A stretch of 64,000 bases of DNA from Halicephalobus mephisto (taxonomy: Eukaryota > Nematoda > Chromadorea > Rhabditida > Panagrolaimidae): assembly GCA_009193035.1 (NCBI GenBank), contig SWDT01000131.1:62001-126000 (forward strand). The letters run 5' to 3'. Positions 11,819 to 64,000 of the stretch are shown one piece after another. The position numbers and the translations under genes were made by a program. The notes below the pieces were generated by a model, which was not told the DNA's origin, ran no database searches, and saw only the letters and a program-made list of their open reading frames with translations. Within the stretch, counting starts at the first letter, position 1. The number at the start of each line of letters is the position of its first letter.

Positions 11819-12604
11819 ACGTTCACTTCGAACAAGTCCGTGGAGAAACAGGTTCCATTCAGTTTAGGGAAAACAGAAAAGAAAGGCTGATCGACCCCAG
11901 AAGACCTTGTTAAGTTCGATCCAACATTTTTTCGTTCCAATTTGAATCAAAAATCAAATTCTAAACGAAAAATCGATTTTTTAAATGTTTTTAAAAACAT
12001 AATTTATAAAGTATGTTTTTTCGATAATTTTATTTTCAAATATTTTTATAAAAAATATTTTTTTTATTTTAATTTAAAAAATATTTTTTTAATTTAAAAA
12101 ATGTAAATAGTTTTAATTTAAAAATTATTTTAAAGTAATTTAGAAATTTAATTTTTTAAATATTTTTATAAAATTTCTAGAATTTTCGAAAATATTAATT
12201 ACGAAATAATTTCGAAATTAGTGATTTTTAATTTTCAATCAAGTTTTGCAAATTCGTATTGAAAAAATCCGATCAAAATGTTCAATTGTTTTATTTACAG
12301 TAAGATGATCATTAATCTGTTTTTTTTTTAATTTTTAAAATTTTTTTAACGAATATCTTATAAAATAAAAATTTTCTATTTTTAAATATCCGATGTAGAC
12401 CTCTTTGAGAACTTCGAACATTTTTTGGAAATTTTTATTTCGAAAAAGTTCTTGATCGATCTTCGAATAATACTGTAATGAAGATACATTCACTTCAAAA
12501 ATCCTATTTTTATTAATATGGTTTAATTTTTGGTGTTTTAAAAGTTCGTTTTTTTAAAATTTTTAATTTATATTAATTTTAACTAATTTTGCTGAATTAC
12601 GAAT

Positions 12605-13405: not shown

Positions 13406-13416
13406 CCTCGATTACT
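13406..13416. repeat. Target-site duplication, left, of minus-strand SINE
   Basis: CCTCGATTACT is repeated exactly at 13793-13803 on the other side of the element. Confidence 0.75.
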
Positions 13417-13792
13417 TTTAGAACTTTAGCACTTTATCGAACGTTTTCAAAGCAATTACAATATAGGATTTATAACATTATACACTCAAGCTTGGACTCC
13501 TCTATTGTTCGCGCATCTCAACCTTTCTGATCATCTCCAGGGAATTATTCCTCTTACTAAGATCATCTTTAGGGAATTCTTCTCTTACTAGAATCATCTC
13601 CAGGGAATTCTTCCTCTTACTAGGATCATTTTTTTGGTCCTTCTGACCTCGCTTCTTTCTTTGATGAGTGCGTCTTAGTCGTTTGTAGTCAGATTGCAGC
13701 TGGCAAGGCCTGGATCTGCAGTCTTTGGTCGGGAATCGAATCCGAGTCTCGTAACTTTGCAGTCACGTATACTACCATTGTACTACCGAAGC
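13417..13792 (-). mobile_element. tRNA-derived SINE, copy 1
   Basis: Read on the minus strand, the 5' end (13792 downward) is a tRNA-like head of about 72 bases. It has an A box (TAGTACAATGG), a B box (GGATTCGATTCCC, one base off the consensus), and an acceptor stem in which six of seven pairs form. The anticodon stem closes on a 6-nt loop, so it is not a functional tRNA. The body that follows is shared with 53993-54296 at high identity. This copy carries three tandem versions of a roughly 32-base piece (GATGATC-TAGTAAGAG-GAATTCCCT) where the other has one. Perfect 11-base flanking duplications support retroposition. A SINE depends on a LINE reverse transcriptase in trans and on RNA polymerase III transcription from the internal boxes. 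Confidence 0.88.
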
Positions 13793-13803
13793 CCTCGATT
13801 ACT
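13793..13803. repeat. Target-site duplication, right, of minus-strand SINE
   Basis: This is an exact copy of CCTCGATTACT at 13406-13416. Confidence 0.75.
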
Positions 13804-15079: not shown

Positions 15080-16080
15080 AGGTCGAAATTTGGATTTTTC
15101 GTTCTAAGAAGATATTTATAATTTTTTTATTTCGAAAAAATTATTTTTTATAAATTAATAATTCGAATTTATTTGAATTTTTCGAATAAATTTTTTTTCT
15201 AAGAAGATATTTATAATTTTTTTATTTCGAAAAAATTATTTTTTATAAATTAATAGCTTGAATTTATTTATACTTTTCAAATAAATATTTCTTTCTAAAA
15301 CGATATTTATAATTTTTTTATTTCGAAAAAATTATTTTTTATAAATTAATAATTCGAATTTTTTTGAATTTTTCGAATAAATATTTTTTTCTAAGACGAT
15401 ATTTATAATTTTACATAAATTAATAATTCGCATTTATTTATACTTTTCAAATAAATATTTCTTTCTAAAACGATATTTATAATTTTTTTATTTCGAAAAA
15501 CTATTTTTTATAAATTAATAATTCGCATTTTTTTGAATTTTTCGAATAAATATTTTTTTCTAAGACGATATTTATAATTTTTTATAAATTAATAGTTTGA
15601 ATTTATTTATACTTTTCAAATAAATATTTCTTTCTAAGACGATATTTATAATTTTTTTATTTCAAAAAACTATTTTTTATAAATTAATAATTCGCATTTT
15701 TTTGAATTTTTCGAATAAATATTTTTTTCTAAGACGATATTTATAATTTTTTATAAATTAATAGTTTGAATTTATTTATACTTTTCAAATAAATATTTTT
15801 TTTCTAAAACGATATTTATGATTTTTTATTTCGAAAAAATTATTTTTTATAAATTAATAATTCGAATTTTTTTGAATTTTTCGAATAAATATTTTTTTCT
15901 AAAACGATATTTATAATTTTTTATAAATTAATAATTCGAATTTATTTATATTTTTCAAATAAATATTTTTTTCTAAAACGATATTTATAATTTTTTATTT
16001 CGAAAAAATTATTTTTTATAAATTAATAATTCGAATTTTTTTGAATTTTTCGAATAAATATTTTTTTCTAAGAAATAACA
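15080..16080 (+). repeat. Roughly 100-bp A/T tandem array, about ten copies
   Basis: Units contain CGATATTTATAATTTTTT, TTATAAATTAATAATTCGAA and TTTTTCGAATAAATA. Two subtypes (TTTGAATTTTTC and TTATACTTTTCA) roughly alternate, suggesting a dimeric higher-order unit. Confidence 0.7.
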
Positions 16081-18240: not shown

Positions 18241-18419
18241 TTTGTTCGTGATCGTCCGACCGTGCGAAAGTCGATCGAAAATGTCTGAAAATGATGTTTT
18301 TGGACTTCGGAGATGACGCATTCCAAAAATGTTTAAAAAAAGTAAATAAAATTTCGAATAAAATAAAAATCTGCAAAAATAATTTTTAAAATAAAAATTT
18401 TATTATTTAATTTATTAAA

Positions 18420-19390
18420 TATTTTTTACTTTCTTCGTGTCAGGATCATTTTTTATTTTTTAAATTTATAATTATTGAAAAAGTTATTTTTATTATTTGA
18501 CTTCTATTGATCGACCAAGGTTTTATTTTTTGAATTCTTTCGTGTCGAAACCATTGTCATTTTTGGCATTTGTAACAGATCGCCAAAAAATAGTAATTTT
18601 AAAATTTAATTTTTTTGCTTTTATTTTTTAACTTTTTTCGTGTCGAAACCATCGTCATTTTTGGCATTTGTAACAGATCGCCAAAAATAATAGTTTTAAA
18701 ATTTAACTTTTATTTTTGATTGAATATTTTTTTTTATTTTTTAACTTTTTTCGTGTCAAAACCATTGTCATTTTTGGCATTTGTAACAGATCGCCAAAAA
18801 TAATAATTTTAAAATTTAATTTTTTTGCTTTTATTTTTTAACTTTTTTCTTGTTAAGACCAATTATTTTTTCGGCATTGGTAACACTTCGCCAAACAGAA
18901 CAAACTTTATTTTTTTATATTTGCTGACTAATCAAATATTTTTAATTTTTAAAATTTTTTTAGTATTGGTAACATTTCGCCAAACAGAATAAAATCTAAC
19001 AATTGACTCTTTTTGATCAATTTAGTATTTTTAAAATTTTTCGTGTCAAGACCAATTATTTTTTTTGGCATTGGTAACATTTCGCCAAACAGCATAAAAT
19101 CTAACAATTGACCTTTTTTGATCAATTTAGTATTTTTTTAATTTTTCGTGTCAAGACCAATTATTTTCTTTGGCACTAGTAACATTTCGCCAAACAGCAT
19201 GAAATCTAACAATTGACCTTTTTTGATCAATTTAGTATTTTTTGAATTTTTCGTGTCAAGACCAATTATTTTCTTTGGCACTAGTAACATTTCGCCAAAC
19301 AGAATAAAATCTTACAATTGATTTTTGTTGACCAATCAAATATTTTTTAAAATTTTTTTGGCATCAACAATATTTCGCCAAACAGCGTCA
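18420..19390 (+). repeat. Tandem array with core TTTGGCATTTGTAACA..CGCCAAA
   Basis: Eight to nine units of about 100-120 bases contain TTCGTGTC(A/G)A(A/G)ACCA, then TTTTTGGCAT and AACATTTCGCCAAACAG. The pair TTTGGC / GCCAAA in each unit can form a short hairpin. Confidence 0.65.
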
Positions 19391-41200: not shown

Positions 41201-41599
41201 TAATTCCAGGCCAAAGAAGCTTTGAAAAGACGTAGAATCCACAACGTCAAGGATAAACGAAATCCAGGATTTAAAAAAAATAAAAAAAAAATAAAAAAAA
41301 TAATTTTTTATAAAAATTTTAAAAAATTAAAAAAATCAAAAAAGTTTCAACTTTAACTTGAAAATTTAATTTTTTATTTTTATAAGGATTATCCCACGAA
41401 ATCCGATTGAAAAAATTTAATAACTTCAAAATTAGAAGATTTTTATTCTTTTAATTTTTAATCCAGAGGAAAAGAAGATGGGATATACAGTATCTTTAGG
41501 AAATTAATTAATTTGAAACTATTTTTATTTAATAAATATTTACGTATTTTTTAAATTCTTTTAGTCATACTTGAAGAACTTTATTATTTTGTTTGTAGT

Positions 41600-44010
41600 C
41601 GAAAAGTACCGTAAAATCGAACTTTAATCATGTCAAACATAACAGAGAACACTTTTCTTTTTTAAAAATAACTCAAATAAATTTTAGAAAAAAACTAAAA
41701 AACTAAAATTTGACTATTTAGAATAAGGAAAAATTTTCAAATATTATATTTTCTAAAAATACTGTAAAATCGAACTTTAATCATGTCAAACATAACAGGG
41801 AACACTTTTCTTTTTTAAAAATAACTCAAATAAATTTTAGAAAAAATCTAAAAAACGAAAATTTGACTATTTAAAGTAGGGAAAAATCCTCGAATATTAT
41901 ACTTTTTAAAAAGTACTGTAAAAAGATATTAAACAACTTTAAACATAACAGGGAACATTTTTCTTCTTTAAAAATGACTCAAATGAGCTTTGGAACAAAA
42001 TCCAAAGAATTATAATCTGGCTTTTTAGAATAAGGAAAAATCTTCGAATATTATACTTTTTAAAAAAGATTAAAATATTAAACGTGAAAAAATTTAAAAA
42101 TTATCGGAGAACACTTTTCTTTTTTAAAAATCATCGAAAAAAATTTTAGAATAAAACATTAAAAATTAAAATTGAATTTTCTGTGATGAAAAGAAATTTT
42201 CGAATATTATACTTTTTAAAAAAGATTAAAATATTAAACGTGAAAAAATTTGAAAATTATCAGGGAACACTTTTCTTCTTTAAAAATGACTCAACTGAGC
42301 TTTGGAATAAAATCCAAAAAATTAAAATCTGGCTTTATAGAATAAGTAGATATTCATCAGAGGTTATATTCGAAAAAAGATTATTATTGAATGCTGAATA
42401 AATTAAAACACAACGGGGAACACTTTTCTTTTTTAAAAAAATTCAAAAAAAATACGGAGCAAAATTGCGGAAATTAAAATCTGATTTTCTAAGATAAGGA
42501 TATAGTTGTCAGATGCCAGATGTTAGATTTCGAAAAAATTATTATTAAATATTAATTTCAGAGGGAGTGGGGAACACTTTTCTTTTTTTTGAAACAAGAA
42601 AAATATGTTTTGCAATACAACATCAAAGGTCAAAATTTGATTTTCTGGAATGAAAAAACATATTTGGATATTAAATTCGGAAATAAAAACACTGTAATAT
42701 TAAATATTAACTAATATCAGAGATCGGGGAACACTTTTCCCCTCTCTGAAACAAGAAAAATATATGTTAGAACAGAACGCCAAGAATCAGAGTTTGATTT
42801 TCTGAGATAAAAGAACATTTTCAGATGTTTAATTTAAAAAAATATAATAATATTAAATATTAACTAATATCAGAGATCGGGGAACACTCTTCCCCTCTCT
42901 GAAACTAAGAAAATATATGTTGGAACAGAACGTCAAGAATCAGAGTTTGATTTTCTAATATAAAGAGATATTTGTCAAATGTTTAATTTTTTTAAAATAC
43001 AATAATAATAATAGATATTAACTACTATCAGAGATCGGGGAACACTTTTCCTCTCTCTGAAACTAAGAAAATAAATGTTGGAACAGAACGCTAAAAATCA
43101 GAGTTTGATTTCCTGAGATAAAAGAACATTTTCAGATGTTACATTTCAAAAACAAAATTCCGTAACATTAAACATTAATTATTTCGAAATATGAACATAT
43201 TTTACTTTTTAAAAATGAGGGAAATGAACTTTAGAAAAGTAAAAAGTCGGAGGATAGTTTCCTGACATCATTGGAAATTTCTAAATATTGAAAATTTTTA
43301 AATATTGGAAATTTCTAAATATTGGAAATTTCTAAATATTGGAAATTTCTAAATATTAAGAATTTCTAAATATTAAGAATTTTTAAACATTGGAAATTTT
43401 TAAATATTGGAAATTTTTAAATATTAGAAATCTTTAGATACCAGATTTTGAAAATTGATATAAAACGAAACATCAATTATTGCGAAACATGAGAAGGAAC
43501 ACTTTTCAAACAGGAAGTGAGTTTTAAAATAAAACATTCAAAATTGAAAAAAATAATTTCAGAATTTTAATGATTTTTCAAAATTTAAATAAATTTATTA
43601 CTTATTATTTTTTAGTTTTTAAAAATTAATGATTTTTAAAATATGGCAGGGAACACTTTTCGCGTTATAAAAAATTTAAAATGGAACAGAACGCCAAAGA
43701 TTGAAAAGTAATTTTAACAATTTTTAAAACTCGAATAAATTTATTATTTTTTAGTTTTTAAAAATTAATGATTTTTAAAATATGACAGGGAACACTTTTC
43801 GCGTTATAAAAAATTAAATGGAACAGAACGCCAAAGAATGAAAAACATAATTTTTTTTTAATTTTTCAAAATTTAAATAAATTTATTACTTATTATTTTT
43901 TAGTTTTTAAAAATTAATGATTTTTAAAATATGACAGGGAACACTTTTCGCGTTATAAAAAAATGAAAAATAGAACAGAACGCCAAAGAATGAAAAAAGT
44001 AATTTTTTTT
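41600..44010 (+). repeat. Roughly 155-bp degenerate satellite, about 15 copies
   Basis: The core GGGAACACTTTTC occurs near 41648, 41800, 41950, 42108, 42264, 42417, 42571, 42728, 42880, 43037, 43493, 43648, 43786 and 43935. Most spacings are 150-158 bases. Second landmarks are AGAATAAGGAAAAAT and AACAGAACGCCAAA. A 15-base subarray (ATATTGGAAATTTCTAA) interrupts it at 43280-43440. ORFs inside (such as 42183-42401) are not supported. Confidence 0.85.
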
Positions 44011-51012: not shown

Positions 51013-54000
51013 TCAAGCTACAGTACTCGGAGTTCTGTCTCGATGAACACTGGCGACAAAGGGATCTTTGCAAGCTTTTCTTCGTGTCGGAAATCTTTTG
51101 AACAAGTAGTCGTTTGCAATAGCTGACATTTGAGCTAAAATCGGATTTTTTTATTTTTTATTTTTTAAATTGTACCTTGTTTTAGTTGATCTTCGACCAA
51201 AGCTTGTTGTTGAGCACTGGCGAATTTCTCAACGATCATTGAAATCGGGAAAGCCAGGATTATGATTCCGCAGATACTAGCGGCTGTTGCGACGCTTTTG
51301 CCGGCGGTTGAAACCGGGAAGGTATCTCCGTAGCCTACTGTAGTTACCGTAGTTCTAAAAATCAATCTTAGAATTGAAGTTTGCAATTTTTAAACTAAAA
51401 TTACTCAATTTTCAAAGTAATTTAACTTTGAAAATTTTATTTAATTTCCTTACATGCACCACCAACACGCTGCAGGGATACTGTAGAAGTCAGTATGAGG
51501 TTCGTCTTTCTCCAAAAAGTACATCACTGTGGAAAAGAAAATAGTGCCCGTCACGAGGAACATTGACAGCATCGACAACTCCGTCATACTTGCCCTCAGG
51601 GTGTTTCCGAAAATCTGCAAAATTTTATTTTATTTATTTTTTATTTTTCGCAACTACCTGTAATCCTTGACTGTATCTGGCCAACTTGAACACCCTGGCC
51701 ATCCTCAGGACCCTTAGTACTCTGATGACCAACATGGCTCCTAAAAAGCGAAAAAATAAACACTACAGTATGCCCTACAGTAAGTCAGAGGACGAAAGTT
51801 GGAGGAAATCCGAACCTATCCAAGATTGAGTTTTTCTGGAAAAAGAAGCTTTGTTGTCTCCTAAATTTACAAAACACTACTATTACTGTAATTTCGTAAC
51901 TAAATAACCAACCTGTAAATTCCTTCAATTTTTCTGCATTGATTCCTCCGAATTCGGACAGAGCAAATTCGACGTAGAACGGCAGAATCGTGAAAAGATC
52001 GATCAAATTCATCGTTTGAATCAGGAATTTTTTCTTTCTCGGAGCAACTAGAAATCTTACAAGATATTCCATCGTGAACCAAGCAATGCAGAAATATTCT
52101 AAAGTAATCAAGTAATGGTGAGGTTGATCTGTAGGTTTATAAACGAAATCTGTTTTGTTAAAACTTATTTCGTCTGTTTCGAATTTTGACAAAGTGTTAT
52201 TTTTCGGACGTCTTTGGTAAATCATATGGTAGTAATGGGCCTGGGAACTGTCCTCCTGGAACTCCGGCATCGACCCCAGAATCAGTCCTAAAAGTGATTT
52301 TTTAATTTTAAAAATTACTTCTGAATTTTAAAATTTTAAAAATTTAATTTTTTAAAATTTATATAATTTTTTAATTTTAATAATTATTTTTGAATTTAAA
52401 AAAGTAGATTTTTAAAATATAAAAAATTAAAAATTATTACCGACTACGGATGCAAAAATGAAACTGATGGAAATAAAACTAAAAATTTTTGAGAAAATTG
52501 AACTTGAAGGATCTTCGGTTAATCTCCAGATTGTTTTTCGGAAATTTTCAAAACGAACCTGAAAAATTACTTTTTATTTTTATTTTTTAATAAAGTAACT
52601 AACTCCGTCGAATTCTTTTTCTGTTTCTTCGATATTTCTTAATTTCGGAAATTCATTCAAAACCGAACAACAAGGAGCAATTTGATCGTTTTTCAACTTC
52701 CAAAATTGAAGTTCTTCTTTGAACCTTTCTACACAGACGTCATTTGGCTTGTGTAGTAGTCCCGTCACGAAATAGTCCAGGATGTGATCTGCTACCCTGG
52801 AATTCCTCTCCATATAGTACTCCCCGGTTTCTGTGATGAATCCATCGACCACTAGGAGTCTTTGTTCGTGAGTGGCTTTGACCAGGTACGTCAACAAAGA
52901 AGGTTCTCGACAAGTCAAGATGACTTCGATTCTGATTTTGTAGGACTTTCCTCCGACGTTTAGCCTAAAAAGCGGATCTCCTTCTTTAATGGGAGACTGA
53001 ATAACGCTTCCATTCGGAATCGGGACGTCTGGCTGGACATCCGCATCCGGCCGATCCGGCTTGGGCTCCGTCTTGAGGATATTTCGGGTCGGGGTCCCGG
53101 GGACGGAATGCAATACGTCAGCTGCAATATTCAATATATCAAATTGAATTTACTCCGTAGACTCTGTTCTATATGTGAAAACGAAGTCCTCCATCTGTAG
53201 CTTCAACAACCTTGATTCTAATGTAAGAATGTAAATTTCTCAGATGAAGAAATACAACGGGTAATAAGATCTTAAGGATTGCAATTTACATCGCGGCATA
53301 TACTGAATCAAGTTCATCTCTATCTATCTATTCCTAAGCCCATCAATAACTACACACAAAAAAGCATTACTTTCGGCTCTGTAACAACTGCGAAATGTAA
53401 CTGTTGTGGACGCACAGTCCTCATGACCGGAGATATTCAGAACACCGAAGACTTAACAGTCCCTTCTCTCCACTGAGGAGTACAAAAGAAAACGCTTCGG
53501 TGTACCGGGTGTAGCTCTAATATTAATAATATTTGTTCCTATTTTGTATTGTTTCTCATTCTAAGTAAAAGACATAACAGTAACGAACGTGATAATCGTC
53601 ACATCTTTCATGAATATTTAGTTTTTGTGACGAAAAATAAAAAATAATAGTGACGATTTGCATTTGTTATTGAGTTAAAAATTACGCTTTTTTGTGTATT
53701 CTCTTAAAAGTTTAAAGAAAATCAATTTCAACCCTATTTCGTAACTACTCTGGTGGAAGTGATATAAGAAGATATAAAATCTTAAAAATTGTAATTCTCA
53801 TCTTATATATTGCATTGATTATCTTCACAAACCCACTTTTGAATCCGATAAATATGTACTCTATCGAAAACTCTCAATATATCGTTATCATAGTCATTCT
53901 TTAAATACTGTAGATGGAAGAACTGAGAATTATGAAATCCTAAAAGTTGCAATTTCTACACATCTCATATATCGAATTCATTTCGTTTAGCTTTCGGTAG

Positions 54001-55287
54001 TACAATGGTAGTATACGTGACAGTAAAGTTACGAGACTCGGGTTCGATTCCCGACCGAAGACTGCAGATCCAGGCCTCGCCAGCCACAATCTGACTACAA
54101 ACGGCTAAGATGCACTCATCAAAGAAAGAAGCGAGGTCAGAAGGACCAAAAAGATGATCTTAGTAAGAGGAATAATTCCCTGGAGATGATCAGAAAGGTT
54201 GAGATGCGCGAACAACAGAGGAGTCTAAGCTTGAGTGTATAATGTTGTAAATCCAATATTGTAATTGCTTTGAAAACGTTCGATAAAGTGCTAAAGTTCG
54301 TTTAGCTATGAACTCCCTCTTAAACCTAGTATGTACTTGATTGACAATTCTTCAAAACGCTGATGTCATATGTATTCCTTAAGTACTTCGAACGAAATAA
54401 GATTAAGATTTTATAAGATTCTAAATATTCCAATTTCCATATATCTCATGCATCAAATTCACTATATCGATCGGAAAATTTATTTCTAAATCTAATATGC
54501 CCTTTATTGACGATTTTCCAAGATACTAACGTCATAATCATTCTCTAGATACTTCAGATGAAGCAATATTAAAAATTACAAGAAATCAAACATTGTATCT
54601 GTCATTTATCTTAAATATAAAGTCGATTTTGTTAAAATAGGAACTTATTCTTAGATTTGATATATATATATATGTGTTTGATTGTGACTTTTCAAGTTAT
54701 CTACAGCATATTCAGTCTTTATATACTTTGTATTTGATAGTACTAACAACTACAAGATGCTAAACATTATATCTGTCATTTATCTTAAATATAAAGTCGA
54801 TTTTGTTAAAATAGGAACTTATTCTTAGATTTGATATATATATGTATTTGATTGTGACTTTTCAAGTTATCTACAGCATATTCAGTCTTTATATACTTTA
54901 TATTTGGTAGTACTAACAACTACAAGATGCTAATTATCCTAACTTGTGAATATAAGTTGTTTGAACGCAAATTCTAGAGATAGTTTTTAAATACTCCAAA
55001 ACATAGTCTCCGATTCAAGAGCAATTCATGTAAAAATAATAGTAGTCAATGTATTTTTAGATTTAAACTTGTCCCAAAGGACTTTCTAGACGATTCTCAA
55101 TCTAGTCTTTTGGTTTTTTTTTTATTTTTTTGTTTTTTATTTTTTAAAACTTACCAAATTCCACAGCTAAACTAGCCGCACTTTCGATCGTGTCGATTCT
55201 GGCCAGACTCGGTCTACGATCGGCATCCAGACTGGTCGTCGGCATGTTCAACAACTGCTGTCTTCTCTTGAACAGAGCTCCAGCCAT
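51013..55287 (-). CDS. Voltage-gated potassium channel alpha subunit (Kv)
   Basis: Eight exons (55287-55155, 53121-52604, 52558-52441, 52287-51913, 51740-51658, 51614-51454, 51354-51176, 51134-51013) keep frame and give 562 residues. Residues 96-200 form a T1 domain (FRLNVGGKSY) with a complete HX5CX20CC zinc site (His168, Cys174, Cys195, Cys196), marking a non-Shaker-type Kv. S1 to S6 follow. S4 reads VIRVLRVLRMARVFKLAR, with six basic residues every third position. The selectivity filter is TTVGYGD near residues 467-473. S6 has AFPISMIV, where most Kv channels have a PxP hinge. The protein should form a plasma-membrane K+ channel tetramer setting excitability. The nearest nematode relatives are the kvs/exp-2/Shaw-like set; I do not assign one. 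The first ATG after the acceptor at 55300 is out of frame, so an upstream coding exon may exist. Confidence 0.92.
53351..53699. mobile_element. TACACAAAAAAG-family MITE interrupted by an LTR
   Basis: The ends TACACACAAAAAAGC and CTTTTTTGTGTA and the AATCGTCAC/GTGACGATT pair identify the family. Removing 53402-53584 (solo LTR plus one target duplication) leaves about 166 bases, the normal size. It lies in Kv intron 1. Confidence 0.75.
53402..53579. mobile_element. Solo LTR, 178 bp, nested in a MITE
   Basis: The element begins TGTTGTGGACGC and ends GACATAACA, giving TGTT...AACA termini. It is bounded by the exact 5-base duplication GTAAC (53397-53401 and 53580-53584). It is clearly richer in G and C than its surroundings. 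No internal retrotransposon genes are present, so it is a recombined solo LTR. The 5-base duplication and TGTTG start would suit BEL/Pao or Gypsy; assignment is tentative. The ORF at 53279-53476 crosses its edge and is spurious. Confidence 0.75.
53982..53992. repeat. Target-site duplication, left, of plus-strand SINE
   Basis: TTCGTTTAGCT is repeated exactly at 54297-54307. The last three bases could also belong to the element start (GCT), so the duplication is 8-11 bases. Confidence 0.7.
53993..54296 (+). mobile_element. tRNA-derived SINE, copy 2
   Basis: The tRNA-like head has A box TAGTACAATGG and B box GGGTTCGATTCCC (perfect), with 3' acceptor half CCGAAGA. The body (CTGCAGATCCAGGCCT, GAAGAAGCGAGGTCAG-like, CGCGAACAACAGAGGAG) matches copy 1 closely. 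The 3' end GATAAAGTGCTAAAG is shared too. It carries a single version of the GATGATC...GAATAATTCCCTGGA piece that copy 1 has three times. It lies in Kv intron 1, antisense to the channel gene. Both copies end in a short AAAG/CTAAA tail rather than a long poly(A). Confidence 0.88.
54297..54307. repeat. Target-site duplication, right, of plus-strand SINE
   Basis: This is an exact copy of TTCGTTTAGCT at 53982-53992. Confidence 0.7.
54577..54920 (+). repeat. Direct tandem duplication of about 172 bp
   Basis: TACAAG starts units at 54577 and 54751 and the next boundary is 54921, giving 174 and 170 bases. The units differ mainly in length of a TATATATA run. It lies in Kv intron 1. Confidence 0.85.
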
Positions 55288-55439
55288 GGCCGCATCGGAA
55301 CTGCAGACGATTTTCAAATTTTTTTCTTTGTTTTTTTTCTAAATAAAAATTAATAAATTATAAAAAAATTACATTCAATTTGTTAAATATAATAAAGTTT
55401 TAAATTTAAAAAACAAAATAAGTCACTAAAGAAAATATT

Positions 55440-56185
55440 TTATTAATTTAAAATTTGAGATATTTTTGGAAATTCTCAAAATCAAACACAAAAATTAAAA
55501 TTCTTGATTCTAAATGAAAAATTACGGAAATTCCAATCGAGACCATTTTTTAGAATTTTGTAATTTCTAAAATAACCTACTTCAAAAATTTTAAAACAAA
55601 ATTAAACACAAAATTTCGTAATTTTGGGTCTTGAGTGGAAAGTCCAAAAAAATCTTGTTAAGACAATTTTAGAATTTTATAATTTTAAAAATTATCTACT
55701 TCAAAAATTTTAAAACAAAATTTCGTAATTTTGGGTCTTGAGTGGAAAGTTCAAGAAAAAAATTCTTGTTAAGACATTTTTATTTTATAATTTTAAAAAA
55801 GTATATTTTCTGAACTTTGAAGTGAAATCAAACACAAAATTTCGTAATTTTGGGTCTTGAGTGGAAAGTCTAAAAAATTCTCGTCGAGACAATTTTAGAA
55901 TTTTGTAATTTCTAAAATAATCTACTTCAAAAATTTTAAAACAAAATTTCGTAATTTTGGGTCTTGAGTGGGAAGTTCAAAAAATTCTCGTCGAGACATT
56001 TTTGTACTTTTAAAAAAGTATATTTTCAGAAATTTGAAGTGAAACTTAAATATAAAACTTCGTAATTTTGGGTCTTGAGTGGGAAGTTCAAAAAATTCTC
56101 GTCGAGACATTTTTATTTTATAATTTTAAAAAAGTATATTTTCAGAACTTTGAAGTGAAACTTAAATATAAAACTTCCATAATTT
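55440..56185 (-). repeat. Tandem array with TTGGGTCTTGAGTGGAAAGT core
   Basis: Six units of about 100-120 bases carry TTCGTAATTTTGGGTCTTGA followed by AAAATTCTCGTCGAGACA. TCTTGAG and TCGAGA-type pairs can form a hairpin. It lies directly upstream of Kv exon 1. The ORF at 55922-56110 is an array artefact. Confidence 0.7.
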
Positions 56186-56399
56186 TGAGTTTTAAATAAA
56201 AAAGTTCTAAAAATTTCCATTGACGCAATTATTTGAAATCTTTTGGAAAACTATTTCTGGTTTTATAATAGTATGTTTTTAAAGTCTGCAGTAGGATGTA
56301 AATGCTAAAGACTATAATTTTCTTCCTCAACCGGAAAGTTCTCAAAATTCACTTCAAGAAAATTTTCCAGAATTTTTGATTTTATAAAACAAATTTTAA

Positions 56400-57550
56400 A
56401 ATTTTTCAAAAACTATAAAAAACAAAAATTCATTATTTTCGGTCTTAAATGGAAAATTTCGAAATTTAATTTTTTAAATTTTATAATTTTTTAAAATTGA
56501 TTAAATATGAAATTTTATTATTTTTGGTCTTAAATGGAAAATTTCGAAATTTAATTTTTTTTAATTTTATTATTTTTTAAAATTGATTAAATATGAAATT
56601 TTAGAATTTTCGGTCTTAAATGGAAAATTTCGAAATTTCATTTTCGAACAATTTTAAAAATTTTTAATCGAAATTTTATTTTTTTAAATTTTAGAATTTT
56701 TTAAAATTGATTAAATATGAAATTTTATTATTTTTGGTCTTAAATGGAGAATTTCGAAATTTCATTTTCGAACAATTTTTAAAATTTTTAATCGAAATTT
56801 ATTTTTTAAATTTTATAATTTTTTAAAATTGATTAAATATGAAATTTTATTATTTTCGGTCTTAAATGGAAAATTGGATAAATTTGTGTTAGAACTATTT
56901 TTTGGAATTTCATTATAAATATTTTAATTTTTATAAAAAATAAAATTATTGATCAAAAACCACTTTTTCAGTCACAAGGGGTCAAGTACCAACATGTTCA
57001 AAATTGTTCAATAAAATTTTAAAAAAAACAAAATTTATGAAAAAATTCAAAAATTTATTTTTTAAAATCTTTTCAAAAAAAAAATAAAAATTATTTAAAA
57101 AAAATTAAAATTACTTAAAAAATTGAAATTATTTTTAAAAAAATTAAAGTTATTTAAAAAAATTAAAATTACTTAAAAAATTGAAATTATTTTAAAAAAA
57201 TTAAAATTATTTAAAAAATTGAAATTATTTTAAAAAATAAAATTATTTTTTAAAAATTTGAAAAAAAATTAATCAGGAAGGTTTGTCTTTTTATATAAAA
57301 TTCAATCGATGACGGAATTAGCCTCCTAGTGGTTTTTAGTGAAGCCGACCTCCAAAGGAAAAAATGATATCAGTAGTGCCCGAGGCAGTCGGTTTTGAAA
57401 ATTGAATGTTGAGTCAAAAGACACAAATACTCAATCTCTCGAAAAACCTGAAATGGATTCGATTCTGGAAAAAATCCAAATTCAACTAAAAACTAAAAAA
57501 AAAATAAAAAAAATAAAATAAAAAAAAAATAAAATAAAAAATAAAAAATA
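56400..57550. repeat. A/T arrays
   Basis: 56440-56890 repeats TTTTCGGTCTTAAATGGAAA with TTAAATATGAAATTTTA, about 80-110 bases per unit. 57030-57260 and 57490-57550 are AAAAAATTAAAATTATTT and AAAATAAAAAATAA. 57290-57480 is unique with no gene seen. Confidence 0.65.
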
Positions 57551-62030: not shown

Positions 62031-64000
62031 ATGAACCCGATGCTGGAGCAACTTTACACTGCTTTATCCAACACCTTGAATCCCAACAGTGATATAAGGA
62101 AAAGCGGCGAACAAACGCTCAGTCAACTTTCGCGGGAGTCGAGTAAGTTTTTGGATTCCATATATCGAAGTTCCACTTTTTGCAGATTATGGCTTCGTTC
62201 TCCTGGAAATCACCCTAGCAGACGCTTGTGATATGAGTGGCAAGTTATCCGCGGCCACAGCGCTGAAAAATTACATAAAATATGTTTGGAAAGAAGAAGG
62301 AGAAGTCAACCTTGCCGAAGAAGCGAAAAAGAACCTCCGTGAAAACGTTTTTATAGCGATGATGACAGCTCCACAACAACTAGCCAAGATTCTCTGTGAA
62401 GCAATCTGCATCATCAGCAAGTACGATTTCCCGGAAGGCTGGCCAGAGCTGATAGATCTGATAGTTGCGGGTATCCGGAACAACGTCGAGAATATCGGAC
62501 CTTTGATGTCGGTTCTGATTGCCCTCGATGGAATCTGCCAAAGATATCGCTACGAAATGAAGTCCAACATGCTCTGGATGGAGATCAAGCTGGTTCTGGA
62601 TAAAGTAGCCATTCCGTTGACGGATTTATTCACGAAATACGTAGAATTCGTCCAACGGATTCCAGATAAGCTGAATGACTGTATCGAAATCTTGACTAAA
62701 ATTGTCTCTATCTACCATTCCCTCCTGTCTCAAGACCTGCCAGAAGTTTTCGAAGACAACATGGAAATCTGGATGCCGGGATTCCACGCACTATATCAGC
62801 TGAGCGTCGGTCAATCGTCCGAGTCCGCGGAAACCCCTCTAGATGCCCTCTGGGATGAGATGACCGTCGTTGTGACCCTTTATGCCCAAAGGTTCGAGGA
62901 AGAGATCATGAAGTACATGGAGAAATTCGTGGAGCTTATTTGGCAATCTCTGACAAAAGTGGTCGAAAGTAAAAGAAAAACCCAATTTGCAAAGTCAGGA
63001 ATCAACTTTTTATCCGCTTTAGCAATCCGTCCACAATATGAAGGAGCATTTGAAGCTGAAGGGATAATGGAGACGCTGATTAACACTATTATTTTGAGGA
63101 ATATGTCATATTCGGATGAGGATTTGGAATTATTTGAAGACGAACCAGTTGCTTTTTTCAAACAAGATCTCGATGGATTTGATAAAGAAACAACTCGAGG
63201 AGCTGCAGCCAATTTCTTAAGAAGTTTATGTCAACGTTATGAGAAGAAAGTTGTGGAAATTATTACTCCTGTTATTTCAAGTCAAATGGATAGTTACTTG
63301 TCGTCTCCTCAGAATAACTGGAGACAAATGGACGCTGTTTGTGGGATTATTTTGGCTGTTTGTTCAAAAACAGAAACTCAAAAATACGGAGCTACTTCTG
63401 TTTCGACTTTTGTATGTTTGATTATTGTTTTGATTTGTTTATTTTTTGTTTTAGATTGATATTAATGATTTCTGTCGACGGTTGATCATTCCCGAATTGA
63501 CGAAACCTTCTGTCATTCCTCTTGTAGCTGCAGATTGCTTGAAATTCTTTGTTACTTTCAGAAATCAACTAGATCCAAATTTGATCGTTCAGTTTTTCAA
63601 TGGACAACTTGCAGTTCGATTTTTGAATCCGCAAAGTAATGAAGGAGCTATTCTTCGGCTGTATTCTGCTCATACAGTAGAGAGATTATTGACAATTCCT
63701 TTAATTCGTCAAGAAAGATCAAATATGAATGATCTTTTTGTTCAATTTTCTGAATTACTTATTTCTGATTTATCATTGCCGATGGGAATTGATAATTGTT
63801 ACTTGTTGAAGTGCCTCTACAAATGTGTGTCATATATGAATGTAAGTATTTTTTTATTTTTGTATTGGAATAATTTTCTTTTTAGAATGACACCCTTTCT
63901 AAGAAGTGTCTCGAATACACTTCGATTGTGTCTGGTGTGTTAGATGCAGCTCTTAGGAAGTCTGTATATGTGGACAGTTTGGCTATTCACTATGTTTTTG
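62031..64000 (+). CDS. xpo-2: Exportin-2 (CSE1/CAS), importin-alpha export receptor, 5' part
   Basis: Exons 62031-62142, 62186-63411, 63455-63841 and 63886 to beyond the window keep frame and give about 613 residues of a protein normally near 970. The N-terminal half is importin-beta-type HEAT repeats: LPxR-like IRKSGEQTL, the CSE1 signature LKNYIKYVWKEE, DFPEGWPELIDL, SNMLWMEIKLVLDKVAIPLT and DLPEVFEDNMEIWM. These align along their whole length with human XPO2 (FKNYIKRNW, DFPQKWPDLL, SNELWTEIKLVL, DLPEFFEDNMETWM). The protein binds RanGTP and returns importin-alpha from nucleus to cytoplasm. An acceptor TTTAG ends 1 nt before the ATG, consistent with trans-splicing, and an upstream ATG at 61948 in the same stretch would then be removed. 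The gene is truncated by the window edge, not broken. Confidence 0.96.

Follow-up and report, generated by a model that had tools for sequence, protein, structure and literature searches.

The known SINE/LINE pairs are dominated by LINEs of the RTE and CR1 types, at least in the passages of the relevant survey that were available (PMC3747384). The AviRTE element is a case in point: it has mobilised several SINEs, among them one in birds with a tRNA head, and an insertion of the LINE itself is marked by a 13-bp duplication, according to the sections consulted (PMC4844689). Nematodes figure modestly in this literature. In a study of plant-parasitic species, SINEs make up 0–0.43% of the genome among the table rows seen, with SINE/tRNA-Deu-I annotated in Bursaphelenchus xylophilus (PMC11118728), and in the text available to us RepeatModeler2 called no SINEs in P. 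pacificus and did find them in Pristionchus relatives (PMC9297572). For Halicephalobus mephisto, the genome paper reports that RepeatMasker left 87.3% of interspersed repeats unknown, and the word SINE is absent from the main text (PMC6872716).

Two elements in the 64-kb stretch of H. mephisto DNA analysed here (the window) belong to a real tRNA-class SINE family, ordinary in kind, that very probably owes its spread to a LINE acting by target-primed reverse transcription. The family is new as far as searches of the open-licence literature go; no earlier description was found there, so one may exist elsewhere. It was first noticed as an “autonomous” SINE of a Caenorhabditis-type host, and neither term can be kept. 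The former is the wrong word, since SINEs code for nothing. The latter lacks support, the nearest named relative of one protein encoded in the window being from Panagrolaimus: the exportin-2 frame at 62098–63459 (+) matches a Panagrolaimus superbus protein at 51%, and P0001 on a 5-kb ENA contig at 90%. What the family offers is a copy-by-copy record, from a subterranean nematode, of a SINE of low copy number whose signatures of retroposition are intact.

The two copies and their family

The original prediction gave the positions and strands of both elements correctly, each with its own exact 11-bp target-site duplication (Table 1), and the common tRNA-like head with A and B boxes, common body and common 3' end that it described were confirmed for both. 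The two copies align over 367–370 BLAST columns at 78–79%, and BLAST of the window against itself yields no third copy in these 64 kb.

Table 1. Parts of the two SINE copies, in window coordinates (TSD, target-site duplication).
Feature	Position	Strand	Details
TSD, 3' copy of element 1	13406..13416	-	11 bp, exact; reads CCTCGATTACT on the + strand; locus L029
SINE copy 1	13417..13792	-	376 bases, counting the short 3' tail, which is variable; locus L029
tRNA-like head, copy 1	13722..13792	-	A box 13775-13785, B box 13733-13743; RF00005 match at 13721-13792
Internal array, copy 1	13536..13630	-	three units (32, 31 and 32 bp), from the unit parse of L029
TSD, 5' copy of element 1	13793..13803	-	exact repeat
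TSD, 5' copy of element 2	53982..53992	+	11 bp, exact; TTCGTTTAGCT; locus L001
SINE copy 2	53993..54296	+	304 bases; locus L001
tRNA-like head, copy 2	53993..54062	+	ARAGORN 53992-54062; A box 53998-54008, B box 54041-54051
Internal array, copy 2	54153..54184	+	one 32-bp unit, from the unit parse of L001
TSD, 3' copy of element 2	54297..54307	+	exact repeat

The surrounding sequence has features of its own. The window is about 74% A+T and, compared with itself, shows long satellite-like tandem arrays at 15094–16073, 18374–19385, 41599–43236 and 55436–56950, among others. At 12377–12450 (+), which is 285–358 of locus L029, lies a sub-threshold match to the SmY spliceosomal RNA (23.1 bits, E 0.047; the gathering score is 39).

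The outcome in which only these two copies exist did not occur: the family comprises at least 72 loci (pooled within 550 bp) on many contigs of the 59.9-Mb, 331-contig assembly. With copy 2 as query, at least 55 matches were listed, 40 of 149 candidates being scored and several loci matching more than once, while pattern searches allowing up to three mismatches located the body at 57 places, the tail at 48 and the head at 43, as opposed to none for a reversed control pattern. All of these copy counts are lower bounds. Sequence was read and duplications scored for 50 of the 72 loci, and two further ones, L128 and L129, were read in part. Of the 50, L044 was dropped for its unrecognisable tail, leaving the 49 copies on which the counts below are based.

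Each element consists of a tRNA-like head of about 71 nt (70 in copy 2), a common body, one to eight internal units of 31–32 bp and a 3' end reading ...GATAAAGTGCTAAA, without poly(A). The 33 copies with an intact start are 304–592 bp long. The 3' tail varies, with an extra AGTGCTAAA unit in L035, for example; such units and their variants form short tandem repeats at the 3' ends, a clear second unit being present in few copies. Measured against the majority sequence, head and body diverge by 4.4% at the median (39 copies, each with at least 90 aligned bases). Given this value and the exact duplications in most copies, the fairly recent insertion proposed from the two window copies is a reasonable reading of the sequences, and insertions diverged by some 4% could be used as presence/absence markers between Halicephalobus isolates. 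Two arrangements seen along the way concern particular loci. On contig C289, a SINE pair in opposite orientation (602124–602449, +, and 603710–604028, -) lies about 1.3 kb apart with differing duplications, and the SINE at L023 apparently lies within the 3' portion of an L082-like LINE, since its flanks resemble by eye the L082 LINE end.

The most unusual traits of this SINE are its variable-length internal array and its clustered headless 5' ends. Copies with the common head carry one to seven array units and the headless copies L032 and L056 carry eight, while L018, L022, L030 and L050, which bear a second type of head, have at most one. (In L041, also of the second head type, a 301-bp stretch replaces the single internal unit, possibly as an insertion or an older form of the body.) Growth of the array mainly by recent local slippage was considered and set aside, because units within a copy are scarcely closer to one another than units of different copies (similarity 0.863 versus 0.850; 35 copies parsed, two of them without a unit); private expansion is thus not the apparent main source of the array. 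In a search of open-licence papers on the internal tandem, the phrase was absent from the papers that matched.

The tRNA-like head and its source

The Rfam tRNA model (RF00005) reaches its gathering score of 29 in copy 1 only, at 36.7 bits, as against 57.5–75.8 bits for the tRNA matches of the genome (the best 62 reported, 63 of 3,768 candidates having been scored). ARAGORN labels the head of copy 2 “tRNA-???”, with a four-base anticodon. In the Rfam alignment the anticodon arm of copy 1 has a 5-bp stem and an 8-nt loop, while RNAfold draws a longer stem with a 4-nt loop in copy 1 and a 6-nt loop in copy 2. The SINE heads thus have neither the 7-nt anticodon loop nor the full score of a tRNA gene. 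It had been claimed that the arm closes on a 6-nt loop and that these are not tRNA genes; the second part stands, because none of the Rfam and RNAfold drawings has a 7-nt loop, and the first holds only for copy 2 as drawn by RNAfold, copy 1 having 8 or 4 nt.

Transcription by RNA polymerase III follows internal A and B boxes and ends at a run of T residues. Among the 33 intact-start copies, 25 match an A-box pattern and 27 match the B box either exactly or with one mismatch. An internal TTTT is absent from 28 of the 33, and the first one downstream is met at a median of 56 bp.

Most headed copies share a head beginning GCTTCGGTAGTACAATGG..., and seven (L018, L022, L030, L041, L050, L128 and L129) have a second type like TCTTCGGGTAGTACA..., which is apparently older, being more diverged by eye. 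With up to two mismatches tolerated, a pattern for this second type hits 12 places, of which five lie beyond the 72 loci. For the source of the head, 23 tRNA genes were gathered (20 of the 62 matches plus three Asp genes found by pattern) and 21 of them, covering nine isotypes, were compared, the other two Asp genes being identical to one used. Asp-GTC aligns best to the common head among the 21, with a score of 28 versus 21 or 17 for Gly-TCC and 52 of 73 columns identical; with the other type of head, Asp is ahead on L030, and on L041 it scores the same as Gln. Nevertheless, we do not claim the label “tRNA-Asp-derived”, because 16 identical places in the genome reading AATTCACGAGACCCGGGTTCGATTCC (for example C63:80699, C25:190247 and C55:1135432) are nearer to the common head over 26 bases, agreeing by eye at 23 of them where Asp agrees at 20. 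These places are probably an abundant set of tRNA genes, from which the SINE head may have come.

Insertion marks, 5' ends and rival readings

The duplications at the insertion sites were scored as the longest exact repeat joining both edges of a copy, with 820 random position pairs in long loci, given equal search freedom, as controls. An exact duplication of at least 8 bp flanks 33 of the 49 copies, compared with 30 of the 820 random pairs, and one of at least 10 bp flanks 28 of the 49, compared with three of the 820. The 33 duplications of 8 bp or more, which bear out the expectation that copies have their own, are all distinct, with a median of 11 bp, lengths mostly of 8–14 bp and 72% A+T. 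Ten copies show none of even 6 bp, including L115, for which almost no 5' flank was read. Among 31 sites, no target motif is apparent by eye beyond A/T richness.

The 5' ends coincide, 33 of the 49 copies beginning at consensus positions 1–3. Even among the 16 copies that begin otherwise, 11 have a duplication of at least 8 bp. At least 13 of the 49 copies lack a 5' part, with starts at 12, 33, 49, 73, 75, 75, 170, 231, 231, 231, 232, 233 and 272; three more were judged by eye not to belong here, namely L009, with an internal deletion close to its start, L050, a poor match bearing the second type of head, and L115, whose locus stops two bases upstream. The truncated copies keep their 3' end, a tally in which 3' loss is not fairly sampled, as rows without a recognisable tail (L044) were dropped.

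The rival readings can be weighed against these marks. Were the copies decayed tRNA genes or pseudogenes with coincidental flanks, and no mobile family at all, one could point to the head of copy 1, which Rfam scores as a tRNA above its gathering threshold. More than 200 bp of body and tail outside the tRNA part are, however, conserved together with the head in dozens of copies, and independent duplications and a non-standard anticodon loop contradict a pseudogene, so that this reading is exceedingly improbable. We give next to no credence to a segmental or satellite-type duplication that carried the SINE along, an outcome named beforehand as refuting. What speaks for it comes from a comparison of 82 flanks of about 300 bases (41 loci, low-complexity filter): nine pairs of flanks match over 33–100 bp, and about 150 bp of the 5' flank of L028 is repeated behind the element. 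Yet these are the only ten pairs, none aligns over hundreds of bases between copies, and the duplications differ in all 33 cases. With flanks mostly unrelated and, L028 aside, only short stretches shared among the 41 loci, segmental duplication fails to explain the family; judged by their flanking sequence, the copies are independent insertions. The L028 repeat, which follows directly behind the SINE and is 96% identical over 127 bp, is a curiosity of that locus and reflects either a tandem duplication at which the SINE inserted or a target duplication of unusual length.

Cut-and-paste elements make duplications of fixed length and show no one-sided loss of an end. A non-autonomous DNA transposon (a MITE or a Helitron-like element) with a captured tRNA is accordingly hard to reconcile with duplications and tails that vary in length, and with 5' ends lost where 3' ends are kept, although this one-sidedness is in part a product of selection, tailless copies having been dropped. 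In favour of such an element, many H. mephisto repeats are helitrons and DNA transposons, according to the parts of the published repeat analysis available (PMC6872716). On balance we regard it as very improbable.

The headless copies may tell us something further about the RNA that is copied. Five of the 13 breakpoints fall in one 3-base window, an outcome matched by three of 20,000 sets drawn at random; in 17 of the 20,000, two windows hold at least three breakpoints each. The eight tail-only copies are a selected set, so that the test describes the pattern and is not based on a clean sample. One cluster, at 73–75, lies just beyond the tRNA-like head, and the other, at 231–233, just beyond a GC-rich stretch. 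Four of the five copies in the latter have duplications of 10–14 bp and the fifth one of 6 bp, while in the former L039 has 10 bp and L032 and L056 show nothing as long as 6 bp. The breakpoints at 73–75 (three copies, with L115 perhaps four) are within about three bases of what we take to be the expected tRNase Z cut of the head. One might suppose that the headless copies are non-random: the SINE RNA would be cut in the manner of a tRNA precursor, or else halted at particular folds, and the defined headless RNA would be a good substrate for the LINE. We consider this conjecture unlikely. If it were true, the mobile forms of the family would be two or three RNAs, each with a fixed 5' end, and tRNA processing would act as an inherent brake whose scars are visible in the genome. 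The clustered 5' ends in any case provide a testable handle on what cuts or stops the SINE RNA.

A candidate LINE partner and the closest known systems

In the favoured mechanism, retroposition by a LINE, the tRNA-like head would supply an internal RNA polymerase III promoter. The resulting RNA would end at a chance downstream T-run, as most copies have no internal T-run terminator. A LINE-encoded endonuclease/reverse transcriptase would then recognise the 3' end, in which ...CTTTGAAAACGTTCGATAAAGTGCTAAA is followed by short repeats, and use target-primed reverse transcription to copy the RNA into a staggered nick. We infer this scheme from duplications mostly of 8–14 bp, short variable tails and 5' loss.

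Which LINE this might be was approached through the reverse transcriptases of the genome, an RVT_1 profile search giving 49 matches, of which the best 30 loci were used. Of four frames tested, L064 and L066 encode endonuclease and reverse transcriptase, and L062 and L069 reverse transcriptase only. The L069 protein resembles proteins of many nematodes, including C. elegans T02D1.1, a likeness that would mark L069 as an RTE-type element. Its 3' UTR matches the genome in 27 rows, the majority of them confined to its last part, and a truncated LINE copy of the same kind beside the SINE at L035 has, by eye, a 12-bp duplication. L069 kin end in repeats of the AATAAAG type: the tails of six have forms like CTTTTGAAAACTTGCCCGAATAAAGGAATAAAGGAAA, and L123 ends in TTTTGAAAACTTGCCCGAATAAAGGAATAAAGGAAA.

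The RTE lead was first read by eye from such 3' ends and then scored against random windows and shuffles. The SINE end CTTTGAAAACGTTCGATAAAGTGCTAAA scores 13 both with the L123 tail and with that of the separate L062, a value that 107 of 20,000 random windows of 46 bases attain, as do 14 and 13 of 3,000 shuffles, respectively; as seven LINE tails, all cut by eye, were compared, 107 in 20,000 becomes roughly 0.04, and the match itself is short, at about 30 bases, and gapped. The L069 tail scores 12 (263 of 20,000 windows, 24 of 3,000 shuffles), and the remaining tails score 10.5 (L071; 1,101 of 20,000 windows), 9.5 (L064), 6 (L079) and 5 (L068). BLAST of the SINE against the 30 reverse-transcriptase loci gives nothing better than E 0.082. 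No LINE ending in the last 29 SINE bases is evident at up to three mismatches: 40 of the 48 tail hits cluster with other SINE signals (part of them were read), and of the eight lone hits, all read, seven run into SINE sequence, the other, L113, consisting of the last 44 bases only, for which any source with the same tail is possible. Separately, a motif search allowing four edits hit two places, in L083 and L085, which are presumably chance matches.

On these alignments, which are suggestive only, the leading candidate for the partner is a LINE of the RTE type whose 3' end resembles that of the SINE; it has about an even chance of being the right one. The competing possibility, that the SINE was moved by a non-RTE LINE, such as the LAYADD-motif LINEs of L064 and L071, or by a LINE now lost, shares every element of the favoured mechanism except the partner. 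The L071 tail, at 10.5, lends it some weight, as does the failure to find any LINE tail near-identical to that of the SINE; on the other hand, L123 and L062, both with tails of the RTE type, outscore L071. The possibility falls just short of an even chance in our estimation.

The variable array in the middle of the element recalls SVA, a composite hominid element without a tRNA head; both are non-autonomous retroelements with a central tandem array of variable length, and the likeness is one of layout only. The SINEs of B. xylophilus and Pristionchus are likewise nematode elements of the SINE class, with a small genome share where one is given in the sources as available; they are class-level software annotations, and the comparison is by description only. 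The AviRTE SINEs have a bipartite tail derived from the 5' and 3' UTRs of the LINE, in the account consulted; the comparison here was with 30 reverse-transcriptase loci, most LINE 5' UTRs lying outside them. Bov-tA and ManaSINE1 share a 3' end with their LINE, whereas the corresponding match in H. mephisto extends over about 30 bases with gaps. In the published passages at hand, the SINEs mobilised by RTE elements (Bov-tA by Bov-B, ManaSINE1 by AviRTE) combine a tRNA-type RNA polymerase III head with a 3' end that the RTE element recognises (PMC3747384, PMC4844689), and the H. mephisto family, with its tRNA-like head and a 3' end that an RTE LINE may likewise recognise, would resemble them in this pairing.
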